From contig JAFUFD010000087.1 in NCBI GenBank assembly GCA_017470055.1, forward strand, positions 1-53,466: a stretch of 53,466 nt of DNA, given 5' to 3'. The notes beneath the pieces are model-generated. The model was not told the origin of the DNA. It made no database searches and saw only the letters and a list, made by a program, of their open reading frames with translations. Positions within the stretch are counted from its first letter, which is position 1, and every line of letters starts with the position of its first letter. Of this stretch, positions 19,849 to 51,544 are shown piece after piece. Both the position numbers and the translations under genes were made by a program. The stretch comes from Prevotella sp. (lineage in GTDB: Bacteria; Bacteroidota; Bacteroidia; Bacteroidales; Bacteroidaceae).

Positions 19849-19876
19849 AACTCCTTTGCTTTTCAAATTCACGCTG

Positions 19877-19908: not shown

Positions 19909-19948
19909 TTTTTTGGGGGAAGATTCACGCTCAATAGCGGAAGAAATG

Positions 19949-20080
19949 CTATTCCCTATATGGAAACAAGGAGTTTCCTGCGTGGGAACTGGGAGTTTCC
20001 TACGTGGGAACTGAGAGTTTCCTACGTGGGAACTGGGAGTTTCCTGCATGGGAACTGATAGTTCCCTACGTGGGAATTCT
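19949..20080. repeat. Six tandem 22-bp palindromic units
   Basis: Units begin at 19949 (degenerate), 19971, 19993, 20015, 20037 and 20059. The core reads GTTTCCTACGTGGGAAC, with arms GTTYCC/GGGAAC around TACGT. Units 2-5 differ at only a few positions. The array begins at the stop codon of the Fic gene and ends about 40 bp before the promoter of the next pair. It could form up to six small hairpins in RNA, or be a variable-number repeat. Confidence 0.9.
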
Positions 20081-23415: not shown

Positions 23416-23428
23416 CGTTACTTATGAT

Positions 23429-24754: not shown

Positions 24755-24787
24755 GCTTCTATATATATTAATAAGGTGTATGTTTTC

Positions 24788-25867: not shown

Positions 25868-25911
25868 ACGTTGTTGTTATTCGTCAGCAAATTATTATTT
25901 TGTTTTGTAAA

Positions 25912-25940
25912 GCGACCGCCCCGCCTTTCGAGGCGGTCGC
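25912..25940 (-). terminator. Hairpin between fimbrillin and anchor genes (partial terminator)
   Basis: A 9-bp perfect stem GCGACCGCC/GGCGGTCGC with an 11-nt loop; on the minus strand it is followed only by TTTACAAAACAAA, a weak T tract. It lies 22 bp after the major subunit's stop. Probably attenuates or protects mRNA ends so that anchor output is lower than that of the major subunit. Confidence 0.8.
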
Positions 25941-25961
25941 TGAATATAGGAATAAGTGTTA

Positions 25962-27890: not shown

Positions 27891-27932
27891 AATTGATTAG
27901 AATTAATTGTTTGTTATTATGTTATTTTTCTC

Positions 27933-29399: not shown

Positions 29400-29416
29400 C
29401 TTGATTCAGTTTTTAA

Positions 29417-30007
29417 TTAGAACATATAAAGGAATGAAAGTACCGCCTTCGTCGGACCGATATAGGTCTTGTGACCGTCGGTATACTGTCTGCCACACTC
29501 GCCACACTCAAAGCCCTTATACTTGGCATACACCACGCCAACACCTGCCGATGCCTCGAAGTTCCAATGGCGAGACAATACCCACTGGTAACCGTAACTC
29601 ACGCCACCTCCAATGTACCAGCCCTCGTAGCGATGGTCACGCAGCCCCTTATACATGCCGAGGGGCAACTTCACATTCGCCGCGTCGAACTCACCGCCCA
29701 AAGCGTGGATTCCCACGAACGAGCCTTGGAAGCGATGGCAGAACCAGTAACGGTACTCCGGGGCAAGCATCCAGTGCTTGAAGTACTTCTGACCATTGTC
29801 GGTGTTAAACTTCCAAGGGTTCAGCCCATAGTACAACTGCATGGTGTGTTTCTTACCAAGTCCCACTTCCATACCAATGTTGGGGGTTGTCGTCGCATCA
29901 TACAGAAGATTGGTCTTCAACGCCACCTGTTGGGCGGATGCCTTCTCAATACCGCTTGCCGTACAAAATAATACAACAAGCATCAGCGCTTTCACTCTAA
30001 AGTCCAT
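29417..30007 (-). CDS. DUF3575 outer-membrane protein, first gene of operon I
   Basis: A 196-aa protein with a signal peptide (cut near KASA-QQ) and an opening VALKTNLLYDATTTPNIGMEVGL typical of DUF3575, a predicted small outer-membrane beta-barrel. Alternating aromatic strands (HWMLAPEYRYWF, YIGGGVSYGYQW, WNFEASAGVGVVYAKY) follow. Near the end is CGECG (Cys168, Cys171), conserved in the operon II homologue. The ATG is about 70 nt after the predicted transcription start at about 30076. It heads the fimbrial operon and is probably part of the outer-membrane assembly site. Confidence 0.9.
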   Translation of the reverse strand: MDFRVKALMLVVLFCTASGIEKASAQQVALKTNLLYDATTTPNIGMEVGLGKKHTMQLYYGLNPWKFNTDNGQKYFKHWMLAPEYRYWFCHRFQGSFVGIHALGGEFDAANVKLPLGMYKGLRDHRYEGWYIGGGVSYGYQWVLSRHWNFEASAGVGVVYAKYKGFECGECGRQYTDGHKTYIGPTKAVLSFLYMF

Positions 30008-30175: not shown

Positions 30176-30202
30176 AGAACGCCCCTTAAAAAGAGGCGTT
30201 CT
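30176..30202 (-). terminator. Intrinsic terminator of fimbrial operon II
   Basis: Minus strand: AGAACGCC/GGCGTTCT with an 11-nt loop followed by CTTTTTG, beginning 25 bp after the stop of the 4428-aa gene. It separates operon II from the operon I promoter. Confidence 0.9.
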
Positions 30203-30227: not shown

Positions 30228-33200
30228 CTATTTGCTCAATACTTTCTTTGTATAGTCGTTGACACGCACGACATAGATACCCTGATTGACTTGTCGTGAG
30301 TAGTCGCTGAACATCGCCGTCACCCGATCGACCAGTTGACCGCCCACCGTATAGACTGCCACACGGTCGCCCTCCGTCAGTCCCTCGACATACAGGATGC
30401 GGTTGCGCACATAGATGCGGTAGTTGGCACCAGCCTCCTCGTTGCCCTGCGGGTCTACCTCCGGGCGTACCCCACCGAAGCGGACGGAGAGGCGGTTGGC
30501 ATAGGTGCCCTTGTCGCCGATAGTCATGGTGTAGCCCGCCGTCAGCAGATCGGTCACGTCGCCTGTCTCACTATCGCTCAGCCATACATGGTCGACATCA
30601 GCGTAGGCGTCAGGCTCCGGCAGACTGATCACATAGCGACCGGCACGTGGAGCCACCACACCTAACGTGATATCGGTATTGAACGGTGCGGCATCGACCA
30701 ACGACAGGGGAACACCTGCCATCGACGACACATAAAGTTGCGGTGTCTCCTCGTTGAAGCCAAACCACTTCACGCCATCTGCGCCGAAGCGATAGGCAAG
30801 CGAGCCGCCTTGCTTGGGCTGCACGGTCACCACATCGTCCACACGCAGGCTGTCCGTGCTGTCAGTATCCGCCCAAGAGATACCCACATACTGACGTGCC
30901 GCCGACTCAGTAGCGCCTGTGTAGACAGGCATCCTGAAGGTCAGCGTCTCCTCATCGCCCAAGACAGCGGTCTGGGTGAAGAAGCCGTCGCCTATCGACA
31001 AGGCTGTGCCATCCGCCCATGACTGCATGGAGTATATCTGTCCGTCGGCACGCAGATAGTCGCCATTGCCGTCCATCGTGTATAGCACATGAGGCACGTT
31101 CATGGCGTAGTTGCCGTCAAGGTCCCTTGCCGAGGTGCTGTAACTGGTCACGAGGTAAGGCATACCCGTCAGGTTCCATCCCATGTTCTCCTGTTTGGTG
31201 AACGAGGCGTCGCCCTCCTCTGAGGTACGGTCGTCATATTGCTTGAGCGCAACGGTCTTCGGTCCGTCCTCGGTATAGATATAGTCCGTGCTGGCACCAC
31301 TCATACCGTTGAAGCGATAGGTGCCCGCTCCTGCGGCGAGCAGCCATCCCTCGTTGGGCTGGAAGTCCCTCGTCACACGGTTCCACATCGCAGAATTCTC
31401 CTCTCTGAAGACAAAGCCCCCATGCCATGTGGCACGCCGCTCGCTGTCGTAGGTATATGCCCCGCTCAGGTCTGCCGACTTGGTAGGATCGGTCGTCGTA
31501 GTATGGGCGGGATTGAAGCGGTAGGGCAGTGACAGGAGGCGGTAGCGTCCCGTGAGTGTCTTCTCCACGGCGACATCCGTCAGTTGCAGCACATTCCCTG
31601 TATGGTCCTCCGCCCCATTGACATAGAACGAGGCGCCCTCCTTGAGCAATAGGAAGCCAGGGCGCAATGGTGTGGTGAAGTCACCCGTCTTCATGGTCAT
31701 GGAGCAGTTGCCCATCAGATAGACCACACTCGCCTGGTGCGGATAGTAATTGCCGTTATAGGTCCCAGAGGTGTTCACCTCCGTAGCGACAGCGGGGTCG
31801 CTCACCCTCCATGTCTCGAAGCAGCCGTTGTCGACCGTCGTCATCAGCACACGGGGATTGCCTAACAGGTCGAAGTCGGAGGTATAGTCCACCGCCTTGT
31901 GCGTATGGCTGTTCAGTTGGTAGGTATATCCCGCCACTTTGTCCGCATGGCTATTGTCGCCGGCGTTGATGTCGGCACTCTCCTCCTGCAACTGATACCA
32001 AAGCGCCTGATTGGTGTTATAGTGGTTGCTGTTATAGGCGGTGCCTCCCCGACGCAGATAGGGTGCGAAGCCACGGAAGCGGCTGCCGTAGTCGCTGACA
32101 TTGATACTGTTCAGCACATGGTCGGCAGGTCCGCTGAAGACGGTCTGCCCCGTCAAGGCAGGCACACCCGTACAGTTGAGGATATAAGCGTCACCGCTGA
32201 CACTTGCCACCGGCTGTCCGTTATCTGTCGTGTTGTTATGCAGCAGCATATTATACAGCAGTCCGTTCGTCATCCTCACCACAGGGGCACCTGTCATCGC
32301 ACAATCCTGTATGATACTATTGCGCAACGCCAGGTTCTGCTTGGTGATCTCCACCACTGGAGCCGTAGCGTCAGGGTTGCTGATCTCGAAACCGTCAAAG
32401 AGGGCGCCGACCGTGTACTCCTGCTCGCCGGTAACCAGTCCGTTGATGGTGGTACGGGTCTCACTCAGCGCCATGGGGGTGCGGTAGTCGGGCGTATTGC
32501 TCTTGACTTTCAGCAGGTATGCCTCGATATCGGCATCCTGCTCACTGAGGTTGCCGTTGGCATCCTCCACCTGCTCCAGCCCCGAGATACTGCCATACAC
32601 CTGCACACCGTCACGGAAGATAAGGGTCTCTCCGACACTGGTGCTGTTCGGACGGCTACGCATCAGCACGTAGGCGGTCTGGTTGTTCTGCGAGGCATAG
32701 ACGGCGGCGGCATCGACGGCATCCTGCATCTTGCCACGCCCGTAGGCGGTCTGCCACATATCACCCTTCGGCGCACTATTGTTCACGGCGGGGTCGGCAT
32801 AGATGACCCTGCGCAACGTCGCCTGGCACTCGTAAGCGCCACGGTCCATGCCTAAGTCGACAAAACGGGGATTATTCGCCATGTCCACATGGTCAGAGAG
32901 GTCGAAGGTGTAGTCCTTGTCTTCCAGGTCCTCGTAGAAACAGTTCGCTTTCAGGATGGCACCGTTCTCGTCCAATACGTTGAAGACGTTCCTTCCCTCG
33001 TTATCCTCTTTAATCCATTCCCAGTACTCACGGTTGACGTAGACGGGGCGTGCCGCCTTCTCACGGGCGGTCTTACCCTCCTCGTCCAAGGCATAGTCAC
33101 CGGTCTCATTGTAGTTGATCCATGCACGGTCGCTACCGACAGACGCAGGTTTCTCCTTACCGATGACCCACTGCTCGTAGGCGGCAGGCGATGCCTTGCT

Positions 33201-36200
33201 CAGGATGGAGATGCTGGGACTGATGCGGAAGTTACGGTTGAAGACGACCTCCTCGTCAGTAGCGTCGGCATCGGGCTGCTCGAAGTTAGGACCGTTGACG
33301 ATATCCTCATTGGCATCCGAAAGCGGGTCATTGCTGTTGACCGCATCCTTGGTGAGGCCGGTGATGGCGTTATGGGTGGTATGACTGTCTAAGACAATAC
33401 CCTCATACTGCGTCGCCTGCCCGTTGTTCTGGTCGTCCCGCCAGATGATATTGTTATGGAACTCAAAATCTGTCCCCGTGCTTGCCATCTTCACATGGCC
33501 GCCGTTCAGGGCAAAAGTGTTATTGACCATCACGGTCCGCTCCGCAGCCTCTATGGGATTGCCCGCATTAGAGTGGAACACGGAGTTGTATATCAAAGTC
33601 TTTCCACCGCCCTTGCCAATGCTTACGGCAGGTACCTCGGTGGCTTTCTTATTGCCGGAGACACCATTCTGCACGAACTTACACTTGCGGATGGTGATCT
33701 TAGGGAGTTCGCCATCAGGGTCGTCCAGCAACTCACTGGGGCTCTCCAACTTATACTGGTCACGGTAGTAGATGGCGGCTCCACCCGCACAAGCGGTACC
33801 TGGCGTTTTCTCTGTCGCCCCCTCTTGATGACCGTTCAGGGCAAGTTGGTTGCGGAACGTGATACCCTCGATAATGACAGGCACTGCCTTACCTGTAGGC
33901 GTAGAATAGGGGCTGTCCCCGAATCTTGACTCCATCTGCTCGGCATTCAGGACCTCTAACAGGTGCTGCACCTGATCGTCACTGGAATTACCCGCATAGC
34001 CCATCTCGAAGACAACAGGGTTATCGTCGGGGGCGTAGGTCTCCCAGTCTTGGCTATAGCCACCCTTGATGGTCAGGCTCTTGATGCCATAGCCCTTAGT
34101 CGTCACATAGTTCAACGGGGTCACGATTCCCTCATTAGTGGTGGGGATATCGATGGTGAAAGCAAGGTTGTTCTGACTATTGAACGGCAGCATGGGCGAG
34201 TAGTTACCCTTAATGATGCGCACCTCCTTGTCGTGTCCGTTACGGTTGGCAAGCAGGGTGTTGATCGCCCATTGCAGTTTGGTCGTCGGACTGCGCCAGT
34301 GGTGTCCGTCATTACCGTATTGGCGGTTCTCCGTCTCAGCCACCCAGATGACATCCACCTCCGAGCCGGCGGAGTTGTCCACCACCAACTGGATATGCTG
34401 GTACTCATACACGCCGATGTCGATATAGGCATACGCCTCACGCATATCGGGGTCGGACGACACACGGAACATATCCTGTCCCGAATAGACACCGCTGGCA
34501 TAACCCATGTACTTGTGGGGACCATAAGGCATCAGGGTCAGCCCGTAAGCGTCCCTGACCTTGTCGGCGACGGTCTTATAGATACCCTGACCCGCATATT
34601 TGTCCGTGTCCACCTTGGTGAACTCCGCAGAGGAGAGTCCGTTAGTCTTCGTGATGGTCTGCTCGATGCCCGTCCATCCCTGGTCGCAAAGACCGTTGAA
34701 GCGGTAGATGAACCAGTCGGCACTGGGCACATACTCATCATAGCCGGCACCCTGTGCGGGGAAGGTGAAGCGTGGACCGTTCAGGGCGTTGTCATTATCC
34801 TCGTTGATAATCAGGTTATGGTTATAGCCACCCAGGTCAAACGAGCCCGACGGGTTGCCCTGGTAGTCGCCCTCAAAGGGATTGCTGCGATAGTCATGAC
34901 GGTCACTGCGTGGCTGTACCGTGGCGGCAGGTCCCCTGCCCTCCTCGTAGGCGCTGAACAGCAGTGCCTCGACATCGCCAAAGCCTGTAGTAGTACCGAA
35001 GTTCATGACATGCGCTGTATTTCCTTCCTCTACCTTATTGCCCCAGTAGATGGTGTTCACCGCATAGTGGCGCAGGTCGTCGGTCGTATTCACCTTGGTA
35101 TTATAGACGGCAGGATACGCCGTTGCCTTGTTACATACGATATCACAATTGATGAGTCGGACATGTGCGTTGTCGCCTGCCCAGATGACACCGCCATAGC
35201 CCGCCGTGGGATGGCTGCTCGCCCAAGTATGGGGATGCAGTGTCGCATTATCGGAGATACGGGTCTTATAGACTCTCGACTCGTTATTGGCGAAGATGGT
35301 GTTCACCGCCAAGAGGTTGGCATTGCAGGCGATGGCGCCACCACCACAGTTCTTGATATAGGCGACCGCATCGGCAGTGTTGGAGGCGGCATCCGACGGG
35401 CTCTCCGCCAGGTTCTGCGCAAAGGAGCAACTGAACACGCTCAGGTCGCCATTGGTATAGATAGCACCTCCCTGCACCGCCGTGTTACCCTGGAAGAAAC
35501 AGTTGGCAAGCACCATCGGGATGTTACGCGCAGCCACCTCATTGGTCTCTGCCCGCTCGTTCTGCTCATCATCGGCGGCATCCGTCCAGTTACCGTCCAC
35601 CAAGATACCTGCGCCACGGTAGTACATACTCTTGTCGAGTGCTGACTCACTATAGCGGCGGGCACTACCGTTGTTGACGGTCACACCATCGATGATGATG
35701 GTACGCTTCGCTTTCGACTCCTCGGTCTCCTCGCCGTCCGCTGGCTCTATGGAAGGCAGCGCACCCGTCTGCTTCGGGTCAGCGAAACAGGTGATGACAT
35801 GATAGAGGTTGAACTCGTCGGCACTGGTGTTCTGTCCCGTAAAAATGGTCTGCTTCGCCATCTCCCACGGCTCACTGACACTGTTTTGGTTCAGGTCGTA
35901 ATGCTCCCGCTCGTCACGGATGTCATTCGTGGACTTACCCAGCAAGGTGTAACCACTGACAGATACGGTCGTTGCCTCATCCCTCTCCTGACAATAGAAA
36001 TGGTTGGCACCACCGTTAAAGCCTGTCAAGGGGTCGATACCACCAATGATGGTCACACCCTCCGGCACCACAAAAGTGTTGTTACGTGCCGAGCCTTGCG
36101 TGTTGTTGGCATCGTGGTAGGGATAATAGGTACCGCCCGATACGAACACCTCGAAACGCTGGTCCTTATACTCGTCTGCCTTTTCCGTGCGCACCTCCTG

Positions 36201-39200
36201 GATATAGTCGAAGGCATCGCCCAGTCGCATCATGGGGTTACCGAAGGAACTGCCCTTCTGATGGTACATCGGGTCACCGCTGTTGGCAAGGCTGTTGGCG
36301 GCATCGGTATTGACATTCTCGGTATGGGCGACAAAGAGGCGGGTCATGATATAGCCCTCCACGAAAAGGGAGAGATTGGCATTGATGGCACGGGCTCCTA
36401 TCTCGATGAACTTATTGTTCTTCCTCACGGTTGTCACCTGCTGACCGCTTACCCATAGTTGGCGACCAGCCTCCTCCTCGGTCTCCTGCATACGGTGCAG
36501 ACCCGCCATATCGAAATCGATAAGGGTGGCGAAGAAGTCCGAGGCGGTCTCATAGGTCTTGTCCAGTGTCTGGAACATGTGGTAAGCCATTCCCGTACGG
36601 GCAAGGTCGGAAGCCTGTGTGATGCCATAGTAGTTGTAGTCACGCTGTCCTGCGTCGGGCTGCAGGCGAATACCCTTGTCCTCGTCACCCGCCACGGAGA
36701 TATTGTTGACACCCGACACACGCAGTGCCTCCACAGCACAGTAACTGAGCGGATAGTTCTCCACACGCTGCTCCTTATTGGTGTCAGTCTGTCCTGCCAC
36801 ATTACCTTGGTCGTCACTGCTGTTCTGCCAGAACAGACTGGAGTTGGCACGCACGTTGCTGCGGAAGTACAAGCCACCGCCCTGCGTGACGGAGGTGTTT
36901 TTCACCACCGTACAGGAGATGATGTAGGCATAGGTGTCGGGCGAGGAGGTCAACTGTCCCTCCGCATCCTCATCAGGCTCCTCCACGGCGATACCGCCAC
37001 CGTATTTCGCCCCGTTGCCCTGCACCACGGTACCGCTCACCAGTCCTTGGCTCTTCAGGTAGAGACCACCGCCATATTCGTCGGCATTGTTGTTCTGTAC
37101 GATACAGTTGCGGACATGGGCGTAGGCGGGCACGATGGCGCCACCACCCCGCTGGTCATCCTCCAGGGCACCGTCTGCCTGACCGTCCTCGATAAAGAGT
37201 CCGTCAAGCACAGCACGGTTAAATGCGCCCATTTCATTCTCCTTCTCACTCAACCGCCTGCTGGTGGGTCTTCCTTCCTCATCGAACACCACATCGGTGA
37301 ACGTGATGGTATGGTAGCAGCGCACGTCCTGCTCGTCGCTCTGATAGATACCGCTCATGATGGTCTTGTTCTTGATCACATCACGGTTGCTGTCGACGAA
37401 CGTACCCTTGCTGTCTTCTGTTGTCTTATAGCCGCCCCACAGTTCCACACCGTATGGCACGATGATGGAGTAGGTACGGGGGTTATCAGCCTGTGGACTG
37501 GTAGGATCGGTCACGCTACTGCGGGTCGCCATGTATTTGAAGTAGTTACCACCGCCCAAGTCCTCCGCAGCCACCTTGACGATGACCTGCATACCAGGGT
37601 TGTCGTACTTATAGCGTCCCGCTGCGTCGAGAACCTTCTGCAGTTTCTCCCAGCAGGCAGGGTTGTTCACATCCGAGGAGGACGCCGTGCCCGCACCGTT
37701 CTGCGTGACGTAGTAGTTGGCGACGCCGTCCACCACGTTAGGCACGATGTCTGCGGCGCCGTTATACTCATAGGCGCCGATGTCTATCTGGCAGTCCTGA
37801 ATGCGTTGCTCGAAATCGACATCCGTCTTCGGGAAAGTACTCGCTTGATTTGCAGGAATCACACCCGCATTGATACATAGTGATTTGGGGTCTAAGCGGA
37901 AATTGTCCAAAGCCGATGCGCTATCGCCTTGCTCAAAAGGATTGGGGAAGGGGTTATTAGCATTCCAGACTGTCGATCCACTCTTATTCTTTCCCGCATC
38001 ACTAAGGATACAGTCAACCATCTTACCTCTAATAGTCCCACCCATCTCTTGCTCAGACTGGATATAACAATTCTGGAATGAGTTAAGTTTACTCGCATTC
38101 TGTGAGCCAATGGCTCTTCCTGTATTGCCATAGAAAATCGTGTTAAAGACATTCAACGATCCACCACCATCCGCTCCTTCATACTGATGTACACCATGCC
38201 CCGTTCCAGCATTAGTACTCGTATTATTCGCCAATACATTCCTATCTCGTTTACGACAGGTATTATATGCCACCGTATTATTATAAAAGACAGCCTGCTC
38301 AATGTAAATGCCTGCGCCACGTGAGTCATTGCCCCAACATATATTGTTAGCAAGGAGAGAATTATAACAGGTACCTACAATCATGTAGATACCACCACCA
38401 TTCGTGTCCTTGTCATTACCCGCCGTACGAATACCTGAGTTAATATTATGGACAAAGAAGCAACCAACAGCCTTTGATGTCTTACCATCACAATAGCCAC
38501 CGCCACCACGGGAACGAACAGCCCCCATATTGGCATTATCCACTATGACGCAGTTCTCCAAAGTACCCCCCTCATACATACGGACTCCCGCACCACCGTC
38601 ACGGTTGGCAAAGTAGTCGTACAAAAAGCCATGACGAATGGTGAAACCATCCCAGTGGGAGTCCTCGTAAGGCACATAGTTCATACCACTCTTTGATGTT
38701 ATAGTGACATTTCCTGCTGCGTCAGTACTCCATGTATAACGTCGAGCATTGCTTTTATCATCGCTATTACTATTAATTGAACCCGGCCACTGGGTAGATA
38801 TACATACATCTGGCATAAAGAGTACCGGTTTACGGAAGGTAGAATAGGTCTTATCTGCCGATACCTTCTTATTTTCCCATTCTTCTCTCACAGAGGTAGA
38901 TGCCTCTATTGCGCCGTCAGCCAGTCGCTCCAAACGGAAATTGTCGAAGACTGTCCAGCCTGTCCCCGTATAGGTGCCTTTCAATCCTAACCGCAAGTGG
39001 CCACCCTCACCGACATAGACCTCAACCCAGTTGTCGTCATAGTGTCCTGACCCCAACAGGTTCGTCACTGCCTTGGCCAGATCGGTCTCCGTTGCATCCG
39101 CCGTACTGACGGTCAGCAGCACTCGCTCCTCGCTGTTCGCAAAGAGTTTGATGTTACCGACAGCATTGCCTTTATTAAACCCTTGGCAAGACACCCGGTA

Positions 39201-42200
39201 GTAGCCCGCCGCCAGTCCGTCAATGTCCTGATAGAAGTCAACCGTATGTGCTTCGGTCTTATCGAACTTTATCTCTGCGCCATGTACGGTAGCATTGCCA
39301 CTCAACGCAAAACCCGTGATATCCGTCCAACCCCATTTTGCCTTGGTAGCATCCCAATTACCCGTTCCACGATTCTGCTCGAAACTCGGGTTCACCAATT
39401 GGGTGGTGCAATCCTCTGCGACACCACTGCCTCTCACTTGCTCATAGTCCGTATAACCACCTTCGCCATTTGCTTTCCGCTGGTAATAGACGGGAATGGT
39501 GACCGCAGTGGTTGTGGTGACGGTCTTGTTGCCCTCCACATTGATATCCTTGTCAGAGAACAGCATGACACTATCTTTAAACGCCCATGTGCCACGGTCC
39601 CAAGGACTCTTGTCGATCACTTGCAGGATGGTCTCGTAGTCCTTCTCATCGAGCGACTCATTCTGTTTGGAGGTTGGCACATACTGCGAGATAAGTGCCC
39701 GACGCTCGTTCTTGCCCGGTGCAGACATCTTGTCAGTGGGGAAACCGCCGACCACCTCCACCTTGTCACGCATGACAAAGCCCTTATAGTCCTCGTAGGT
39801 GCCATGCCCGACCCATACCTGCACACGGTCAGCAGCATCCTTGTTTTTATTCCACACCGCCGCTTTTTCTACAGCAAACTGCAAACCGCTCACATAGTCC
39901 TCATCACGGTTGTTGCTAATAAAAAGGCTATTATCTATATCTGTGCTTTGATAACCAGTAGTGCCTTGGGATACTTTTGGTATCTGGCTGTCTCTTAGGT
40001 TCGTGCGATAGAAGTTACGAGAGGCGCCCGACTTCTCACCATAGATATAGGTGTCGTTCTTGACACGGGTCAGTTCGCTGGCCTTATGGTCGATGGTGTA
40101 GGAGGAAGACTTAGAGCCCTCCAAAGGAACGGTCTCCTCTGTCGTCGTCACACTGCCATCCGCCTCGATGGTCTGGTAGATGCGCTTCTCCGTGACGGTC
40201 TGCTCCTCTTTATAGGTGACCTTACCCTTGTGCATGACATAGTCGATGGCGAAGCCGCCACGATAACGGTCGTCACGGGTCGTCACACGCTTGCCGTCCT
40301 TGTCGGTGACATAACTTTCGCCCACCCGATAGACGAGGTTGCCCGCAATGGCATTGCCCCAACTGGAGCCGTCCATCTTGCCCGCACCGTTCTGTGTGAC
40401 ATAGATCACCGCACCATCGACAGGCAGGTTGGGACACTCCAAGGCGCCCACATCGGCGGCGCCACCTCGGTTACGGGGCATCTGGGTAGTGAGGTCGGTC
40501 TCACTGCTGGTGTCGTTAGCGGCATTGACCACAGGACTGATATTCGAGGGGGTCCAGTCGGGCTCGCCGCCAAACTTGGTGATATCGCCCGCCTCAGAGA
40601 GTCCGACATTGGTCGTCGGGTTGGCGGTGAGCGGATAGCGGTATCTGGTATTGTTGTTCTGGTCGTAAGTGAGGAAGCCGTAACTGTCGGTGAAGGCATC
40701 ACCCGTAGGCATGACACCATTGTCGAACAGGCAGTAACTACCCGTGATATGAGGACCTGTGGCACAGAGAATATCATTGGCGGTGAGCGTCGTCAGGTCA
40801 TCCGTGGTATTCTTGGCATTGGCATAGATGATACTGTTGTCGCAGGTGATGGAGACATTATCCTCCACTCCTTTGGTACGGAAGGCATAGCCCTGGTTCC
40901 TCATGATGTTACAGTGGTTAAGGCGAATCGTCGCCTTGCCGACGCCACCATTGGCGGTCACGGTGCCTCGATACTCTCTGGTCACTCCATCCACTGCCTG
41001 GTTGTTATGGAAGATGCAGTTCTCCAAGGTCAGGTCGCTCTCGGTATTGGCACCGTTGACATAGATGGCGGAGCCGTCACCGTCGGTCACACAGTTGGCG
41101 ATGACGCAGTTGCGCATCAGGTTATTGGTCTGGGGTATCTTCTTCTCACCCTTATCCACCCACACCGGGGTGTTGTTCGACACGATGACGCCACCGCCCG
41201 AGCCCACCTGCGTCACGTCGCCAGAGGTCGTGGCGGCGCCATAGTAGAGTTGCAAGCCGTCGAAGATGGTGTTCTGCACATTGGTGAGTGAGATGACATG
41301 GGTAGCCCACGTGCTGTAGTTGCTGTTGATCAGATTGGAGTTCAGACGGGAGGGATAGGTCTTCGGATCACGCTCGCTGACATCGGTACCCGTCAACGTG
41401 GCGGGGAAACCGCCATAGACATGGATATCGTTAATCGGACGGATACAGCCCGAGCGCAGGTCGTTCGACTGGAACGACGAGGGTCCGCCCGTCGACTGCT
41501 CGCCCTGCTTGACAAAGATCTGGACAGGGAGCCAGTCGCCGTCGCCCTCATCATTACGACTGGGCGTGGAGGTATGATAGTCATAGCCGCCGCTATATGC
41601 CTCACCATCGTAGGCAAGCCAGCCATAGCCATCGTTATGCCCTGCGTTCCTGCGCTGCTCGGCTCGCCAGTCAAAGGCAATCTGGATTGCCTTGGAGAGC
41701 GTACCGACGGGATGGTCCCAACTGTCGCCCACGCCCTCCTCGATATCAGAGGTGGAATACTGATGGGTGGGGTCGACGAAGATGGTCAGCAACTTGTCGG
41801 AGGTCTTTGCCTTGGCAAGTCGGACGCTGCCGTCGGAGCCTTTGAAGTCGTCATAATACACCGGGACTTCCGTAGTACCCTTCATGGACTCCTGCTCATT
41901 GACCAACGCGCCCAATACGGACACTGGCGAGAAGTCGTTACCCATATAGTCCTGGTCCACATGGGCATTCTTCAGCACCTCGTTATCGCTATAGTCTGTC
42001 ACCTGCACACCTTTGGCGATGAGCGAGGAGTTAGAGGAGGGAATCCAGTTGATGCCATCGGTGACACTGGTCTCCACACCCGCCCCCTCAGACGGTTTCC
42101 CGAAAGAGGGTTTGTTGACGGTGAGCCCCTCCGCTGCCTCGTTCTCCTTATAGAGCGAATGGACATTGGTCTTCGATGTGCCCGACCAGTCGGTGATGTC

Positions 42201-43514: not shown

Positions 43515-43529
43515 CTTTTCTTATCTTCT

Positions 43530-44642
43530 TTACATGGGCACCTCCACAGGGGTGTCGCTACCGTCTGGAATATTATTAAGCGACAAGTTGAGCCGAATCC
43601 ACGGCACAAAGATATCGCTGGTTGAAGCCACTGTGAAGACGGGGACATAATCCTTGAGCCCGCCTTCCTTCCGCATCCGCATGGGGATAAAGTACTTGCC
43701 ATTACCTAACCGGAAGGGGATGGCATAGGTATAGCCCCTGCCATAGTATTGCATTCCGACATCCCCATCGCACAACGTTACCGCATAGCCTGTGGGCAGA
43801 CTGGTAACGGACTTGGTGCAATAGTTCTGGGTGGGCTTGAACAGGTATGCCTTCCCATAGTCGCTGTTGAACAGTTTCTCAAACTGTACGAAAGTCACTT
43901 TTAGCCCTGGCTGCCGCTCCGCTGTCACATTCCATGTCACGTCCATCTTCGCCGCCACATGGTAGAGCATCAGGTTGACGGAGGGCACCGTGGAGTTGAA
44001 GTTCTGCAAGGTGCCGTAATAGGTACCGCCCTCGCTGCCCATATCCTTACCCGCTGTATTCATGTTACAGGGGGTCGTGTAGATATCCCGCAGGTAGGTG
44101 TAGCCACCGTCTTTCTCCGCAATGGTGAAGGAGAAGTCCTTGACTGCCTCCTCTGTCGGGGTGGCGGTCTTGTTCTCCAAGTCGCTGTCCAACCGCTTTG
44201 CCGACAGGACGGCATACGCCTTGGCGTTTCTCGAACGGTCGAGGTCCTCCTCGTCAATCTCCAAGGAGACAGTGCCGGTATAGCGATAGACAGAGTCACC
44301 CGGCACGGGATAGCCGTTCTGCACGTTGACCGTCTTCTCCCACAGGTTCTCATCGAGTTCCTGCATATTGGTACCTCCCTCGAAAGTCAGCATCGTGGGA
44401 CTTCCGTCTCCGTTCTTGTAAGCGATAATGTAGAGATAGAGATAGCGGGGGAGTTCAAAGACCTCATAGGTCCCGGGGTCGCCCAGCGCACGCATCCCCA
44501 TGCCGTCATCGGCTGGGATGCTCAGATAGACAGGTATCTGCGTGACGGTATGCCGTGGCGACTCCTCGCCACTCCCTGAGGAGCAGGAGGCGCATAGCCA
44601 TACTATCAAGCCCATCATACCTATATATATATATCGTCTCAT
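43530..44642 (-). CDS. Fimbrillin-like lipoprotein, fifth gene of operon II
   Basis: A 370-aa lipoprotein (WLCASC, lipid cysteine at 20). After the signal come a strand TQIPVYLSIPADD, an arginine-containing MGMRALG, and FELPRYLYLYIIAYKNGDG, the order seen in fimbrillin-like proteins. VNLMLYHVAAKMDVTWNV corresponds to the domain boundary, and the end is WIRLNLSLNNIPDG...VEVPM. It lacks the usual NNIY/NNWY block. Stop to start distance to the giant gene is 15 bp, so both are on one message; it might couple the giant protein to the fimbria, an inference from position only. Confidence 0.75.
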   Translation of the reverse strand: MRRYIYIGMMGLIVWLCASCSSGSGEESPRHTVTQIPVYLSIPADDGMGMRALGDPGTYEVFELPRYLYLYIIAYKNGDGSPTMLTFEGGTNMQELDENLWEKTVNVQNGYPVPGDSVYRYTGTVSLEIDEEDLDRSRNAKAYAVLSAKRLDSDLENKTATPTEEAVKDFSFTIAEKDGGYTYLRDIYTTPCNMNTAGKDMGSEGGTYYGTLQNFNSTVPSVNLMLYHVAAKMDVTWNVTAERQPGLKVTFVQFEKLFNSDYGKAYLFKPTQNYCTKSVTSLPTGYAVTLCDGDVGMQYYGRGYTYAIPFRLGNGKYFIPMRMRKEGGLKDYVPVFTVASTSDIFVPWIRLNLSLNNIPDGSDTPVEVPM

Positions 44643-44658
44643 CGTTGCTTCTATGTCT

Positions 44659-46557
44659 TTAATTGATCAGGTGGTCTTTGCTGATACCTGTCTGCCAGTC
44701 GGTATTGGCACGTAGTCCGACCTGCAGCCCGGCATTGCGCAGGTCAGGGATATTCAGGTAGGCGTTCTCCAGGCTCTCCACCGTGAATTTGACCGTCGTC
44801 ACATGGTCCTGTGTGAACACGGAGCCGTTCTTCACGCCGTTTCCATTCGCATCCTTTCCCTCCGCCGGGTCGAGTTTCGCCAACAGGTAGAACATCCCGT
44901 CTTTCGGCACGATCCGTGAGTTGATACCACGGAAATCCTTACCTGTCGTATTCTTAAACTCCACCGCAATCCATATCGGATCGTTCGGATAGGTCTCCAA
45001 CACCAAGGTGCGCATGACCTCGGAAGGGGTCGTTTTGGCGAGGTAGTCCTGGTCGTCCATCTTGCTATAGATGGTCTGTGCGACGACACCTCCTCTGCTG
45101 TCGGGCTTGAACTCCCAATTGACATCCTGCTGTCCGCCGATATAGATCGCCGTGACAGGCAGCCCTGCGCTGACATCACACAATACCGCCGCATGGTCAG
45201 GTAAAGTACTCTTCGACAGTTGCACTGTCATATCGAGACGACCGACAGCATACTGCAAGGGGGTCTTCAAGGCGATCGACCTGGTCTCACGGCGCACCCA
45301 CTGGTCGGTGCCCGCACGGTCGAAATGGCTGAGTACCGTACCTGTTTCCTCTCCGTCCCATTTCTTCTCGCTGTCATAATAGGTGTCGAGTTGCTGCTCT
45401 GACACCTGCACAGGGCTGTTTGCCCGATAGTATAGCGAAGGCGGATAGACGAAGTTGTTCAATTGATAGCCATTGGCGAAGTTATCATCGCTGACCAAGG
45501 CGCCCAATCCTGCGGTAAAGGTCTCAGTGACCTGATCGTACGTCACATACGCCGCACCGTCGGGCATGTTCAGACTGGCAGGATAGCCTTGGCACTTCTC
45601 GCCCAATGTCAGTTCGGAGTCGTTCAGCACCAGATAGCCGTCGCTTGCCAGCAGATGGAATCTGTCAATAATATTGCTGTATAGGTCATCCTCCAAATAG
45701 TAGTCCTCGTCGGCAGAGGCGTAGAACTTTGTCTTGTCCGTTTCCGTCATGAGCGTATGGTACATCTGCGCCAATACCGTCTGCACGGCATAGGAGGAGC
45801 CTGCCGTTGTATGGGACAACTGACTATACATCGCTCCCACTCGCGTTCCGCTCTCTGCCTTTCCCCATGACTTCATCGGCTCGATGACCTCCCTGTAGAT
45901 GGGATTGCCATCATAGTCCAACTGCCCGGTGTCTTCCCTTCGTATGCCGATATAGGTCACCTGTGCCAACTGGCTCAGGACGTAGGCAAGGTTCTGCCCC
46001 GCCGCATCAGGCTCGGTTGCCTGGGAGATCGGCACCAGACGGAAGGTGATGGCAGAGGGTTGCCCTGCCAATGCCCAGCCGTTATCGAGGTTGGTGGCTT
46101 GTAGGATACCATAGTGGAAACGCCCTGCGGCATCGCTCTCCTGCGCCAAGGTGTTCACCTTGCCGTAAGCGAGGAAGGACTTCGTCCCGGTCAGGTTACT
46201 CCCGATATAATCGTAGTATTGCGAGTTGTTCTTCTTCAGCGAGGTGATATGGGTCTTGAAGATGACTCTTGCACCCCCCACATGGGCATCGTCATCGCCG
46301 GTGACGGGACGGGACATATCGTGGTTGACGGTGAAAGGAATCAACAGCAGGCTATCAATGCCACGCCAGTCCGCCATGTCCTCACTTGCCTGTACCACCT
46401 GAGCCGCCATGCGCATCGTCGACTGACGCTGCCCCACGCTGAACGCCAGGTCGTAATGCTGCTGGTCGTCCTCACAGGACACACCATCCTGGTCGATGCA
46501 GGCGCCAAGCGTCATGCATAACGCAACGGATATAAAGATGGTGTTATAGCGACTCAT
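44659..46557 (-). CDS. Fimbrillin-like lipoprotein, fourth gene of operon II
   Basis: A 632-aa lipoprotein (TLGAC, lipid cysteine at 20). Its C-terminal half parallels the major subunit at 47685-50069: VYPPSLYYRANSPVQVS against TYPAELCYFGNSPLRVS, IWIAVEFKNTTGKDFRG against VYIALEFKNNSGRDFWG, and the ends YLNIPDLRNAGLQVGLR against YVTVPDLRATQVSLGLS. The two are therefore paralogues within one operon. The early part has SMRMAAQVV-type and LLIPFTVNHDMSRP segments as in fimbrillins. It lies 64 bp after the anchor gene and is probably a minor or tip subunit. Confidence 0.8.
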   Translation of the reverse strand: MSRYNTIFISVALCMTLGACIDQDGVSCEDDQQHYDLAFSVGQRQSTMRMAAQVVQASEDMADWRGIDSLLLIPFTVNHDMSRPVTGDDDAHVGGARVIFKTHITSLKKNNSQYYDYIGSNLTGTKSFLAYGKVNTLAQESDAAGRFHYGILQATNLDNGWALAGQPSAITFRLVPISQATEPDAAGQNLAYVLSQLAQVTYIGIRREDTGQLDYDGNPIYREVIEPMKSWGKAESGTRVGAMYSQLSHTTAGSSYAVQTVLAQMYHTLMTETDKTKFYASADEDYYLEDDLYSNIIDRFHLLASDGYLVLNDSELTLGEKCQGYPASLNMPDGAAYVTYDQVTETFTAGLGALVSDDNFANGYQLNNFVYPPSLYYRANSPVQVSEQQLDTYYDSEKKWDGEETGTVLSHFDRAGTDQWVRRETRSIALKTPLQYAVGRLDMTVQLSKSTLPDHAAVLCDVSAGLPVTAIYIGGQQDVNWEFKPDSRGGVVAQTIYSKMDDQDYLAKTTPSEVMRTLVLETYPNDPIWIAVEFKNTTGKDFRGINSRIVPKDGMFYLLAKLDPAEGKDANGNGVKNGSVFTQDHVTTVKFTVESLENAYLNIPDLRNAGLQVGLRANTDWQTGISKDHLIN

Positions 46558-46621
46558 GATCTCGTTATCTTGATTACTGATCTATATTATATATTAAGGT
46601 ACGCGCGTAAGGCTCTCATGC

Positions 46622-47674
46622 TCAAAGCGGCACCTCATGCTGTCCGCCGTCGTTCCAGTTCAGGGTGACGCTGACACCTACAGTGGTGTCGTCCACCCAT
46701 ACCGAGCCGTCGTCACCCAACCGTGCGGTGAGGACTCGCAACTGCCCCGCACGTAATGGCTCGTTCATGTCGAGGAGGGTCTCTGTCACTGAGCCGTCAG
46801 GCATTGTCACATAGACCTTATACTGCCACAGCCCCTCCGCTGTGCCCACCGACACGAAAGGATCGGTGGTCTCGATAACGGTGCGCATCACCTCCCGAGA
46901 TGGGAAGTTGACGGAGCAATAGCAGGCGAGTTTACTGTCGTCTACGGCGACATGGTGGGCACGGATGCTGGCTGGCGTTCCTGCGGAGAAATGGTAGACA
47001 CTGTCACAGATGCTGAAGCCATCGGCGAAACCTGTGGTCTCGACGGCAATACCGCTCACCTGCACACCTGTCGTGTCGATGACGATCGCCGCCGCACAGT
47101 TTGCCATGTAGAGGCGGACATCAAAGGTCTGGTCGACACCCTCCAGCACATGCATGGGCTGGCGTGCCGTGAAGATACCCGTGCTATGTGAGTCCACAGT
47201 CTCACCAGACACCTGCGCCAACTGGGCAGGGTGGCAATAGTCGTCACCCCGTAAGCCCACCAAGGCGTTGTCCACCACATTGGCAACGGCAAGATGCATA
47301 TACTCCTGCATCGGCAGGTTCAGCGTGTACACTTTCTGCGACTCATCGATGATGTCCTCCTGCTGGTGCTGCCGCACCGAGTCACCCGTCGTATCATAGA
47401 ACGAGAGGTTGACGTCATGCGCCTGGTCGCTGAACACATTCCGCAGATGCTGCCTCAAGGCATCGGCAACCTTCTGTTCCGCCGCCGTCGCAGACAGTTG
47501 CGTCGTGAGTTCGGTGCTGATATTCGTCACCAACCGCATCTCATAGCGCAAGTCATAGTCATAGCCACTGTCCGTATCACAGTCGCTCAGGTCATCATCG
47601 ATGGTCGAGCAACTAACGGGCAGCCATGCGGTCAGGCACAGGAGCAGATAGCCGATGACATTCTTTTGACTCAT
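46622..47674 (-). CDS. FimB/Mfa2-like anchor lipoprotein, operon II
   Basis: Start 47674 is preferred over the open frame's 47710: it gives the lipoprotein signal MSQKNVIGYLLLCLTAWLPVSC (lipid cysteine at 22), follows AGGG at 5 bp, and avoids overlap with the upstream gene. The 350-aa product has DYDLRYEMRLV after the cysteine, a block LPMQEYMHLAVANVVDN comparable to the FimB/Mfa2 ALAN region, FDVRLYMANCAAAIVID, and an ending GVSVTLNWNDGGQHEVPL. Position after the major fimbrillin matches anchor genes. Resemblance to operon I's anchor is weak, so the family call is moderate. Confidence 0.75.
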   Translation of the reverse strand: MSQKNVIGYLLLCLTAWLPVSCSTIDDDLSDCDTDSGYDYDLRYEMRLVTNISTELTTQLSATAAEQKVADALRQHLRNVFSDQAHDVNLSFYDTTGDSVRQHQQEDIIDESQKVYTLNLPMQEYMHLAVANVVDNALVGLRGDDYCHPAQLAQVSGETVDSHSTGIFTARQPMHVLEGVDQTFDVRLYMANCAAAIVIDTTGVQVSGIAVETTGFADGFSICDSVYHFSAGTPASIRAHHVAVDDSKLACYCSVNFPSREVMRTVIETTDPFVSVGTAEGLWQYKVYVTMPDGSVTETLLDMNEPLRAGQLRVLTARLGDDGSVWVDDTTVGVSVTLNWNDGGQHEVPL

Positions 47675-47684
47675 CCCTGATGAT

Positions 47685-50069
47685 TTATTCACCCAATATG
47701 ATATCGTCAAAGGTCAGACCTGTCTCCCATTTGATGTCCACTGACAGACCTAATGAGACCTGAGTGGCACGAAGGTCGGGCACGGTCACATAGGCGCTTT
47801 GCAAGGAGTTCGGACCAATGAGGAAATTAGCGGTGGTCATGAAGTCCTGAATGAACACACGGACTTTCTCGTCAGTAGTCCCGTCAGCCTTATAGGGAGG
47901 CAGGACATAATTCTTGGCGGTGCGAGTGGGGAACTTTGACTCAGAGGAGTCGAGTTCTTTGGGGTCGGGGTCGAGTTTACCAATCAGGTAGAACGTACCG
48001 CCCTCACGCACCAAGTTGGCGTTGCCCCAGAAGTCACGACCAGAGTTGTTCTTGAACTCCAAGGCGATGTATACGGGCTGCTTCTCATGCTTAGCGTCAT
48101 AGTTGTCCCACAATAGGGTGTATGAGGTGGCTGTGGACGCTGTGGCGGAAGGCGAGACGGCAACGTTCTTGGTTTCGATAGCCTTGTCGTAGACCATATA
48201 GGTATACGTACTGCCTTTGTTAACGAAGTTCCATCCTACTTTATTCACCATTCCACCAACAATGACACCTGTCAATTGGAAGGAGCCATCACTGACGGCA
48301 ATCTTGTTGTCAGGCTCATCAGCGCCTCGTTGCGCTTTCTGAATGGCACGGTTGTTGTCGTTCAGTTCGCTGGCTGAGCAACGGACTGTCGATTTCAACA
48401 GTGCCGTACCATAATTGATGTCATACTGCATTGCCACGCTACGAGTGGTTGACTTTACAGCACCACCCTTAGTCCAGCCAGTTGCACCCTTCAGCGCCGT
48501 GCTGGCAGCCTGGTTGCCTTCGTCTTTACCATCCCAGAAATCATCATTATCCCACTGAGCCACCGATGCTGGATACTCATTCGTAGTATGGGTGTCATCC
48601 GACACACGCAGCGGGCTGTTGCCGAAATAGCACAACTCGGCAGGATAGGTATAGTGATCGATTGTAGTGGTGGTGTTATCAACACCCGTCATGCCATAAG
48701 TGGGCAAATCTGTTACATAACTGAACTCATTGACCCTTTTGCCACCCTTTGTCGACGTAAAGGTCATCTGGGCAGCACCCATCGGGAGATTCAGGTTGAT
48801 GGGGAATTTATCGATGGAGTTCACTGCAACATAGGCATCTTTCTTGCCATAAACATACTGTTCAAGAGCCGTCTTCAAAGCATCGATTGATTTATAACTT
48901 AACACCCCTGCGTCACTTCTTGTAAAATAAGTACCAAAACGGGTAGAGATACGATCTGCCATCAATTTGGCAATCTGCTCCTCAACACTGGTTGGCTTTG
49001 CATTTGCCACTTTGTCGGTGACTGTCCAGAGGTCTTTCACCAGACGTAACACTGCCTCGGCAGAGCCGGCACGGATCTCAGTGTGACTGCCGACGGTCGA
49101 GATGGTCGTAAAGGTATTATAAGCCTCACCGAGAATCTCCTCCAACGGTTTCATCGCATTTCGCCTGGTCTCATCGGCATAGTCATCACCATACTCATAC
49201 CACTCCTTACTGCCAGTGTAGAAGGTGTAACCTGCCTGGTCACCCGTTCCCGCCGTATTCTCCTCATAAAGCGGAGAGCCATCTTCTTTATTACGGGTAG
49301 CAAAGTCTTCGGACACATTGTCGATCGGCCACCAGAAAGCATAGCGCAGGTCACGTGCTTCGTTATTGCCGTTATCATCGTTGATCGCCTCTTGGTGCAG
49401 TCCGTTCTTGGCGATACGGGTCATGATGGTGGCAAGCATATCGGCAGACTGGGTGAACACGGTGCCATTGGAGCCGATACGGGAAGTCAAGGTGAAGGAA
49501 CTCTCCGTGGCTTTGTCCTTAGGATCGAAGGTGATAGAACCCTGCTGGTCCTCTTTCTTCAAGTTGTCACCAGAAGTCTGGTCTGTAGCGGTCATCGGCG
49601 CCTTACCATAAAACAGCAGCGTGTTGGCACCCACTGGCAGCGACAACTCAATGACACGACGCGACAGGTCTTTTGTCACAACCTCACTGGGCAACAGCGA
49701 GGCAAGGTCGTAGTTGCGGCTTGCCGAGTCTTTGGCGGGTGTAGACACATCATAGAGATGCTTACCGTTGAGAGGACTTTCGTCTTCATTCTTCTGCAAA
49801 TAAGCCATGATATGCACATTATCCATACCACGGAACTTCTCATCAACCGTCGACTGGGTGTTTGCAGAGGTCATACGCATGGTCCCTGTCTCTGTATTAC
49901 CCGTGGAGATATTGAACACAAACTGGGTGTTCACCGTATTGGTCCCCGGGTCATAGTTAGGATTTGTAATCTCTTCCACTACCATATCGTCGCTCGACGA
50001 ACAAGCGGACAAGCCCACGCCAAACAGGGCTATCGCCCCTGCATAGGCAAAATTCAATAATTTCTTCAT
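47685..50069 (-). CDS. Major fimbrillin-like lipoprotein, operon II
   Basis: A 794-aa lipoprotein (VGLSAC, lipid cysteine at 23). TQFVFNISTGNTETGTMRMTS follows the signal, then DNVHIMAYLQKNED and ANTLLFYGKAP, a fimbrillin-like order. The NSPLRVSDD region and the final IPDL-type block (YVTVPDLRATQVSLGLSVDIKW) are shared with the 632-aa gene in the same operon. It is placed where the major subunit lies in operon I, right after the DUF3575/OmpA gene. At nearly 800 aa it is long for a shaft subunit, so it may form an unusual fimbria or a different filament. Confidence 0.78.
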   Translation of the reverse strand: MKKLLNFAYAGAIALFGVGLSACSSSDDMVVEEITNPNYDPGTNTVNTQFVFNISTGNTETGTMRMTSANTQSTVDEKFRGMDNVHIMAYLQKNEDESPLNGKHLYDVSTPAKDSASRNYDLASLLPSEVVTKDLSRRVIELSLPVGANTLLFYGKAPMTATDQTSGDNLKKEDQQGSITFDPKDKATESSFTLTSRIGSNGTVFTQSADMLATIMTRIAKNGLHQEAINDDNGNNEARDLRYAFWWPIDNVSEDFATRNKEDGSPLYEENTAGTGDQAGYTFYTGSKEWYEYGDDYADETRRNAMKPLEEILGEAYNTFTTISTVGSHTEIRAGSAEAVLRLVKDLWTVTDKVANAKPTSVEEQIAKLMADRISTRFGTYFTRSDAGVLSYKSIDALKTALEQYVYGKKDAYVAVNSIDKFPINLNLPMGAAQMTFTSTKGGKRVNEFSYVTDLPTYGMTGVDNTTTTIDHYTYPAELCYFGNSPLRVSDDTHTTNEYPASVAQWDNDDFWDGKDEGNQAASTALKGATGWTKGGAVKSTTRSVAMQYDINYGTALLKSTVRCSASELNDNNRAIQKAQRGADEPDNKIAVSDGSFQLTGVIVGGMVNKVGWNFVNKGSTYTYMVYDKAIETKNVAVSPSATASTATSYTLLWDNYDAKHEKQPVYIALEFKNNSGRDFWGNANLVREGGTFYLIGKLDPDPKELDSSESKFPTRTAKNYVLPPYKADGTTDEKVRVFIQDFMTTANFLIGPNSLQSAYVTVPDLRATQVSLGLSVDIKWETGLTFDDIILGE

Positions 50070-50108
50070 AATCGATTATGTTTATTTAACTTTTTCTATC
50101 TCGATAAC

Positions 50109-51443
50109 TTATTGGTTCTCCACATAGTCATAGTACACCCGCAGGTAACCAGAGTTACGCTGGTCGTCCAAGTGATGCTCCTTGATATACTGGTAGGTAC
50201 GACCGCCACGCAGTCTACGGATCTTCTGCTCACGACGGGGCAGGCTCTCCTCCGTGTCGATAATCTCCAACACTTTCCGGAGTTCGGCGGCATGCTCGGA
50301 GCCATTGGCTATCTCCTCCTCCAACTGGTCACGGAAATCTGCCCATCCCTCGCCACCATAGGCAACGTCAAACTGGTCGTCACTGACAGCGAGACGGTCT
50401 TGGACATATTTCTTCAATGCCTCGGCACGAGCCGCAGCAATACGCTCATTGAGTTTCATGCCGCCATCGAAGGAGGCAAGTCCTACTATCTGTATCTTGC
50501 ATATCTTAGTGTCCTTGTCACTTAGCAACTGACGAGTGACATCGATGATACGATCGAGTGTCTGCTGGTTGTCACGCCATGTCGGGTCGATCTCTGTCTT
50601 CGCTTGGGAGAAATAGACAAACAGGGCACGCTTGTCACGACGCAGCACCTGACTACGGTCGTAGGGCTTATACTCAGAGATGTGGGCAAGAACTGGCTCC
50701 TCACGAAGCAACTTGTCAATCAAACGCTCCTCGGGTTCCTTGACAGCCACCGTAGATACCGTATCAACAGGAGTAATGACAGAGGGGATGACGGGCGGCT
50801 CAATAGGCTCATTGGTCTCAATGGGCAGGATAGGTTTCTTAGGACGACCGGGGATGTTGAATACGATGTTCAAGGCTGCCTGTGGCATGGCGAAGAACTT
50901 CTTGTCATCACCAATCTTGGTACCACACTCACCACACTGATAACGATCGTACTTTGTATAACCTACTGCCGCTCCTATCAATGCCTCGATATTCCAATGG
51001 CGACCCAAGGGCCAAGAATATCCATAAAACACACCAAGGGCACCAAGGTCTCCCTGGCGCCGCTCATCCCGTACACTCTTATAAAGTCCAAATGGGAATT
51101 TCACATCCGCAACGTTATAATGACTATAGATGAGGTTGACTCCAAAGAAATGATGTACATTGACGGAGTCTGTCCAATAGCGGACATCAGGGGACACCAG
51201 CAGGTGCTTCCACTTCTTAGACTGGTGATCATCGGACGGCCAAGGACGATAACCACCTGTCACTCCTACTGACCAATGGGGAGAAAGGCGCATACCAACT
51301 CTCAGGTTCGGAGTCAGCCATGCATCATATAAAAGATTGTTGCTGATAGTCACTTGTTGAGCATGCAAATCAACCGACATCAACAGCATCAGTATGAAGC
51401 AAACTATCTTGTAAATTCTTTTCTTTTCGTTCATTTCGTTCAT
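50109..51443 (-). CDS. DUF3575-OmpA fusion protein, first gene of operon II
   Basis: A 444-aa exported protein (cut near LHA-QQ, residue 28). Residues about 30-195 are DUF3575 (VTISNNLLYDAWLTPNLRVGM; CGECG with Cys170 and Cys173). A proline-rich linker at 198-240 (PKKPILPIETNEPIEPP) leads to an OmpA-like peptidoglycan-binding domain at about 272-350 (FVYFSQAKTEIDP, IVGLASFDGGMKLNERIAAARAEALKKYV). Operon I encodes these as two separate genes, so this fusion predicts that those two proteins touch. No TPR tail is present. The promoter is at 51501-51508. Confidence 0.9.
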   Translation of the reverse strand: MNEMNEKKRIYKIVCFILMLLMSVDLHAQQVTISNNLLYDAWLTPNLRVGMRLSPHWSVGVTGGYRPWPSDDHQSKKWKHLLVSPDVRYWTDSVNVHHFFGVNLIYSHYNVADVKFPFGLYKSVRDERRQGDLGALGVFYGYSWPLGRHWNIEALIGAAVGYTKYDRYQCGECGTKIGDDKKFFAMPQAALNIVFNIPGRPKKPILPIETNEPIEPPVIPSVITPVDTVSTVAVKEPEERLIDKLLREEPVLAHISEYKPYDRSQVLRRDKRALFVYFSQAKTEIDPTWRDNQQTLDRIIDVTRQLLSDKDTKICKIQIVGLASFDGGMKLNERIAAARAEALKKYVQDRLAVSDDQFDVAYGGEGWADFRDQLEEEIANGSEHAAELRKVLEIIDTEESLPRREQKIRRLRGGRTYQYIKEHHLDDQRNSGYLRVYYDYVENQ

Positions 51444-51500: not shown

Positions 51501-51544
51501 CAAAGTTATATAATAATGTGAAAGATGAGTATATTTTAGGGGGG
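51501..51544 (-). promoter_or_regulatory. Promoter region of fimbrial operon II with C6 tract
   Basis: Minus strand: CCCCCC (51544-51539), 30 bp, then TAACTTTG (51508-51501). The segment CTTTCACATT-ATTATATAACTTTGTA aligns with CTTTTACATTTTTTATCTAATTTTGTA of operon I. The leader would be about 50 nt. Confidence 0.65.

Follow-up and report, generated by a model that had tools for sequence, protein, structure and literature searches.

A probable type V-like pilus operon of Prevotella that ends in the gene for a 4428-residue protein with a type IX secretion sorting tail: gene order suggests exchangeable giant tips

In the portions of PMC8313007 and PMC7835359 available to us, type V pilins are described as lipoproteins that are cut after an Arg near the N-terminus, and the last gene of the Porphyromonas gingivalis mfa1 cluster as encoding Mfa5, a protein larger than the pilins that is exported by the type IX secretion system (T9SS) and is found at the pilus tip. 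Mfa5 varies by strain: the C-terminal half is shared, and the N-terminal halves of some genotypes are unrelated (PMC8313007, PMC7835359); its solved part comprises residues 99–664, and the accessible text leaves open how it joins the pilus (PMC7835359). Here we describe an operon (operon 1) of Prevotella sp. whose last gene encodes a T9SS-type protein of 4428 residues, hereafter the giant, on contig JAFUFD010000087.1 of assembly GCA_017470055.1, of which positions 1–53,466, the whole stretch of DNA analysed, are referred to as the window. An earlier note on this DNA had read the operon as one message that would feed two export paths; to take this as a novelty would be too strong, as dual export from one pilus cluster is already known from Mfa5. 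What is new here is the size, the beta-helix body, the breadth and the exchange of whole giants. A giant encoded in a pilus operon of Prevotella was not found described in the literature covered, which comprised accessible text including that of PMC7835359, PMC8313007, PMC10202324, PMC10434189, PMC10897501 and PMC9409006 and left most subscription journals outside its scope.

In the open reading frame (ORF) list of the window, operon 1 consists of six minus-strand ORFs in the order A-B-C-D-E-giant, separated by gaps of 39, 10, 64, 16 and 15 bp; the unit is conserved in relatives and is therefore beyond chance. The giant (30228–43514, minus strand) is predicted from profiles and module comparison to be a secreted protein of about seven related modules with a T9SS tail, and it is preceded by E (43530–44642, minus strand), a 370-residue lipoprotein that partners giants of this family (G-type) and that we propose as their tip adaptor. 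The Mfa1 fimbria resembles this arrangement in its lipoprotein pilins and anchor and in a last gene for a larger T9SS-exported protein. Mfa5, however, has 1228 residues with VWA and Ig-like domains, whereas the 4428 residues of the giant contain choice_anch_Q/beta-helix modules, and the two giant types described below share, in the comparisons made, no more than the sorting tail. By analogy, we regard the giant as probably Mfa5-like in role and not as a member of the Mfa5 family.

As judged from profiles, the giant carries a T9SS type A C-terminal sorting domain, located within the last 110 residues (30231–30560, minus strand). The tail profile of 13 relatives matches the solved T9SS cargo proteins RemA (E-value 1.1e-5) and RemZ (E-value 1.7e-5), in agreement with the T9SS assignment of the earlier note. 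Against Por_Secre_tail (TIGR04183; cut-off 23) the giant reaches 14.7 bits as a whole protein and 20.5 bits with the tail alone, and 10 of 13 tails from type II loci (those with a G-type giant, as opposed to type I loci, which have a giant with YGGG repeats) match this family at an E-value of 0.1. The genome encodes SprA (2593.7 bits), the one part of the T9SS translocon searched for and here its representative. Two choice_anch_Q stretches are found in the giant (E-value 3e-10); counted by module, choice_anch_Q (NF041518) is matched in two of seven and the POMP repeat in one of seven. Structure prediction covered module 1 (residues 30–575; 41790–43427, minus strand), the core of which is modelled as a right-handed beta-helix, so that the beta-helix character ascribed earlier to the giant as a whole is supported, as a prediction, for this module. 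Type II giants span 3786–4991 residues and have 7–9 module starts each in the 12 first-read loci and the window, as counted with a profile trained on these same loci. The matches to choice_anch_Q and POMP liken the giant to the choice-of-anchor Q and POMP-type beta-helix surface proteins, from which it differs by its approximately seven modules per chain, its T9SS tail and its tie to a pilus operon. Similarly, SprB and RemA are large T9SS-exported surface proteins, and RemA is matched by the giant's tail profile; in the accessible text of PMC10202324, however, they serve gliding, and nothing here points to gliding.

The association between E and the giant was followed in 398 same-genus genomes (also used for the searches with B) and, order-wide, in 344 genomes. 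The last 1400 residues of the giant match in 23 of the 398 genomes, and the E profile matches in 29 of them at an E-value of 1e-5, with 22 places at or above 150 bits; the window is included in each count. Downstream of each of the 22 strong E places lies a G-type giant or, where the contig is cut, its beginning. In 20 of them no other ORF of that strand comes first; in the other two (G127, locus L203; G170, locus L200) a 558-residue gene stands between E and the giant. The giant on the contig of G313 is a 33-bit stub only, and a reverse-strand ORF occupies the E–giant gap of G129. The giant is matched without E in G163, G230 and G363, where the contig starts inside the giant. Counted per genome, both matches occur in 20, E only in 2 and the giant only in 3 (Fisher p = 1.6e-28, a value that ignores kinship and takes both 398-genome draws as the same genomes). 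Ten more E-profile places score 25–31 bits, and the two that were read are the gene directly before a 2552-residue giant in the window's own genome (28.4 bits) and a D-type gene of G434; as a single-sequence query, E finds 2 of 100 relatives, its own genome included. Order-wide, E is present in 4 of the 344 genomes, again including the window's own, and in the three genomes of other families it is followed by giants of 3812, 3818 and 126 + 4545 residues (the last in two frames). In these loci, within and outside the genus, the giant follows E and does not stand, as in the counter-case of the earlier note, beside unrelated genes. The gene order which that note had proposed to look for in relatives (DUF3575-OmpA, 794-residue protein, anchor, 632-residue protein, 370-residue protein, giant) is kept in its E–giant part; the exact order is not usual, and most relatives found through B carry another giant.

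This second giant came to light through B, which matches in 102 of the 398 same-genus genomes. Forty B loci, picked by score and contig extent (a choice that favours loci like the window's front genes), were extended; in 38 of them a giant with YGGG repeats stands after the genes B, C and D and one or two lipoproteins of E type, and G041 and G337 have no giant. Most B-found relatives have one E-like gene more than the window. The complete YGGG giants (n = 18) measure 3378–4170 residues, and 15 of the 16 tails tested match TIGR04183 at an E-value of 0.1. The first 1000 residues of the YGGG giant match in 79 of 299 genomes, with no match in the window's genome, and no full-length blastp match links type I giants to the window giant at 1e-5. 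By hhalign the two giant types have approximately 73 tail columns in common (probability 93.6), whereas the first 600 residues give 3.3; the comparison covered the first 600 and last 700 residues and leaves room for remote likeness of the middle parts. In contrast, E of type II and the two lipoproteins E and E2 of type I are related by hhalign (95.2, 96.4 over 51 columns, and 98.1), the match of E2 with E of type II comprising these 51 columns only. Beyond the YGGG giant (L090, L091, L094 and others), directly or past other ORFs, lies another large protein of 1730–4192 residues in 12 loci, which ends in a conserved NVTIGKK-type end and by eye has no T9SS tail. In distant Bacteroidales that have related pilin genes, lipoproteins of 758–1172 residues occupy the place of the T9SS giants (ten loci by eye: L037, L039, L054, L059–L062 and L065–L067). 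Several of these end in an RWRLPT-type motif, presumably FISUMP.

On the sequence comparisons, the window is a mixed locus, in that its front genes (A, B and C) appear type I-like and E and the giant type II; trees place the window B and C with type I loci. In G035 and G207, the order of A, operon 2 (the second pilus operon of the window), a 3126-residue-type giant (G2), thioredoxin and two sodium:neurotransmitter-symporter family (SNF) genes is the same as in the window, and the giant between A and operon 2 is of the YGGG type. In G397 and G372, A and the thioredoxin/SNF genes likewise surround a YGGG giant. The SNF genes of the window are 83–92% identical to those of the four relatives, and A is 70–75% identical to their A genes and 91% identical to that of G202. 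Between the same A upstream and the same genes downstream, a single slot holds different giants of similar size; gene order and the comparisons made show exchange of the giant at this slot. The two SNF genes lie in tandem (5450–8213), are similar to each other in DNA sequence and are kept as a pair beside the locus in four relatives. A foreign origin by composition was considered and dropped, as the third-position GC contents of C, D, E and the giant are alike (0.68–0.72) and no break marks the exchange.

Of the genes ahead of E, A (50109–51443, minus strand) encodes a DUF3575-OmpA outer-membrane protein of 444 residues, with DUF3575 at 177 bits and the OmpA domain slightly below its Pfam cut-off (26.5 vs 27.2 bits). 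B (47685–50069, minus strand; 794 residues) and D (44659–46557, minus strand; 632 residues) are homologous lipoproteins, judged from homology and lipobox to be a probable shaft subunit and a probable pilus subunit, respectively. C (46622–47674, minus strand; 350 residues from the ATG at 47674, the ORF list opening it at the TTG at 47710) is a Mfa2-like anchor lipoprotein that scores slightly below the cut-off of PF08842 (19.9 vs 21.2 bits); within the alignment of C and its relatives, 4 of the 14 sequences match this family at an E-value of 0.01. A lipobox Cys and an Arg are invariant in the B/D alignment (19 of 19 rows; Arg at residue 65 of D) and in the E alignments (13 of 13 and 16 of 16 rows, the window row being in both; Arg at residue 51), whereas among the aligned anchors no Arg is invariant ahead of residue 171. 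This pattern, present in B/D and E and absent from the anchor, is as expected of type V maturation as described in the accessible parts of PMC8313007 and PMC7835359. One type I E, an hhalign relative of the window E, passes P_gingi_FimA (26.5 bits, cut-off 21.4). The gene identities proposed in the earlier note hold for the DUF3575 part of A and the lipoprotein nature of D and E, and fall just short of the cut-offs for the anchor and OmpA; its fimbrillin labels are considered below. Type V operons of Bacteroidales (DUF3575, DUF3868, Mfa1, Mfa2 and tip pilins), of which operon 2 is an example, likewise have DUF3575 first and lipoprotein subunits, and a Mfa2-type anchor of which C is the probable counterpart, but operon 1 differs from them in its DUF3575-OmpA fusion, in subunits outside the Pfam fimbrillin families and in the adjacent giant; a DUF3868 match was not found in operon 1 with Pfam.

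Taking the E–giant linkage, the shared slot, the Cys/Arg pattern, SprA, the tail profile, the 2552-residue giant and the Mfa5 precedent together, we lean, with some reserve, towards reading operon 1 as a type V-like pilus operon that ends in the gene of a Mfa5-like tip, delivered by T9SS and docked through E. In this reading B and D would form the shaft, with C as its anchor, E would be a pilin acting as tip or adaptor, and A would supply the outer-membrane/OmpA component. The four proteins B to E would leave as lipoproteins, and all of them but C would probably be cut after the conserved Arg. The giant's signal peptide would take it across the inner membrane and, as its tail and the SprA gene suggest, T9SS would take it across the outer one, to be docked on the pilus end via E, where its modules may form a long beta-helical rod (one module being modelled) that binds surfaces, probably glycans. 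The dock would be kept while the giant is exchanged. That relatives keep a huge last gene at this place, at times an unrelated one, points to a pilus with giant tips that can be exchanged. The wider proposal, which we put forward tentatively and with rather less than even confidence, is that an E-family lipoprotein is a generic dock presenting one exchangeable T9SS-exported giant of ∼4000 residues, with at least two giant families (beta-helix/choice_anch_Q and YGGG) that are alike, as found, only in the sorting tail and share the slot; the pilus would then be a platform with a tip swapped whole, at which two export machines meet. If this is true, pili of many Bacteroidales, which by record titles include rumen Prevotella, present ∼4000-residue proteins, a surface structure otherwise known in the literature covered from one smaller example, Mfa5. 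Matched E–giant pairs at one slot with two giant types would allow a direct test of how T9SS cargo joins a lipoprotein-built pilus, which the available text of PMC7835359 leaves open for Mfa5. What these bacteria adhere to is probably determined by their giants.

A number of observations weigh against a docked tip or against exchange. Physical attachment of the giant to the pilus is inferred here from the genes. No PDB sequence matches the giant at an E-value of 0.01, which gives no link to Mfa5, and no VWA domain appears in its domain listing. B, D and the window E, called fimbrillin-like in the earlier note, have no fimbrillin family match or convincing Pfam match, and the predicted structure of E is of low confidence (predicted local distance difference test score 37.7). 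The E–giant pair is more constant than the whole operon: in the 12 type II loci read first (contig ends cut some of these short), E is found in 12, C in 10, the B/D protein in 9 and A in 7, with C also in three further type II loci that have upstream sequence and in 5 of 6 of another set. The E–giant gap in these 12 loci is 6–40 bp in nine, an overlap in one, and 251 and 505 bp in two, and a weak second E-like ORF (G690:C1, 68 bits), in one of the three genomes of other families, occurs without a giant. With respect to exchange, approximately unbiased (AU) tests do not reject the grouping of the window C (p = 0.275; run without G225 and without four type I rows placed among type II) or B (p = 0.224; 23 of 39 type I rows) with type II. 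In the C tree, four anchors from type I loci group with those of type II, and D is placed clearly with neither type. Phylogenetic proof of exchange was dropped, the AU tests not being decisive, and gene order is relied on. Finally, G202 has no downstream flank, and no counterpart of the glycosyltransferase gene upstream of the window A is found close to A in any of the five relatives compared.

The same upstream difference, together with an assembly of 125 contigs and 6.84% contamination, would fit a mis-joining of a type I-like front to a type II-like rear. We consider such an artefact very improbable: the two flanks, A at one end and, at the other, operon 2 with the 3126-residue giant and the thioredoxin and SNF genes, are ordered as in G035 and G207, so that two false joins would be needed, and the C-E-giant order recurs in type II loci elsewhere. 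A less drastic alternative takes the giant as a free-standing T9SS adhesin that is cut and linked to lipopolysaccharide (LPS) at the surface and stands in the operon for co-regulation only. The giant ends in a sorting tail of the ordinary type A, T9SS cargo is held in the accessible text of PMC10897501 to be cut and joined to LPS, and operon linkage alone also fits co-regulation; this reading deserves attention, though we consider it unlikely. A matched neighbour is more than co-regulation by itself would require, whereas E is tied to one giant family in every strong locus and related E-type genes precede the other giant; moreover, Mfa5 has the same gene position and, in the available text of PMC7835359, sits at the pilus tip. 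That the giant is instead a glycan-active multi-domain enzyme, its beta-helix modules being lyase- or epimerase-like and delivered with the pilus, appears improbable to us. The fold is common to adhesins and tailspikes, the first Foldseek row with the module 1 model is the adhesin PfbA (E-value 5.7e-3), and no Pfam or NCBIfam enzyme family is matched in the giant.

Putative transcription signals flank operon 1. A −7-like promoter motif, TAACTTTG, lies 5′ of A on the minus strand (51501–51508, the motif being at 51508), and an intrinsic-terminator-like hairpin of 12 pairs with a T-run lies 3′ of the giant (30176–30202, minus strand). TAACTTTG is assigned by its likeness to the Bacteroidetes −7 consensus; by eye, a motif of this type is also found 5′ of A in G202, G037 and G035. 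ORFs, motif and hairpin thus confirm the six-gene, same-strand unit with gaps of 10–64 bp that the earlier note had drawn between 51501 and 30176. As to the internal promoter which it had raised as a counter-case, one −7-like TAnnTTTG motif, TATCTTTG, occurs inside E (43607–43614), 100 bp 5′ of the giant start. It sits in a conserved IFxPW stretch of E and is itself not conserved: a TAnnTTTG in the 250 bp before the giant occurs in 1 of 12 loci of type II and in 2 of 31 of type I, in no case close to the TATCTTTG position, and TATCTTTG was treated as chance.

The genome has other pilus genes. Operon 2 (21538–30007) is a canonical Mfa-type pilus operon (DUF3575, DUF3868, Mfa1 family and Mfa2) upstream of the 3126-residue giant (9751–19131), and both are conserved in G035 and G207. 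Between the two (19239–21161) lie a Fic-family gene, a 117-residue ORF (GC 0.44) and a DUF6169 gene (GC 0.37); G035 and G207 leave no space for these three. A fourth Mfa2 match (54.5 bits) is located on contig C102 without a recognisable operon. The 3126- and 2552-residue giants end in a motif that is presumably a Prevotella T9SS-like tail, family searches having given no tail family. The 2552-residue giant closes a third pilus operon on contig C1 (G000:C1, L216), in which it follows the last pilin-like gene by 40 bp.

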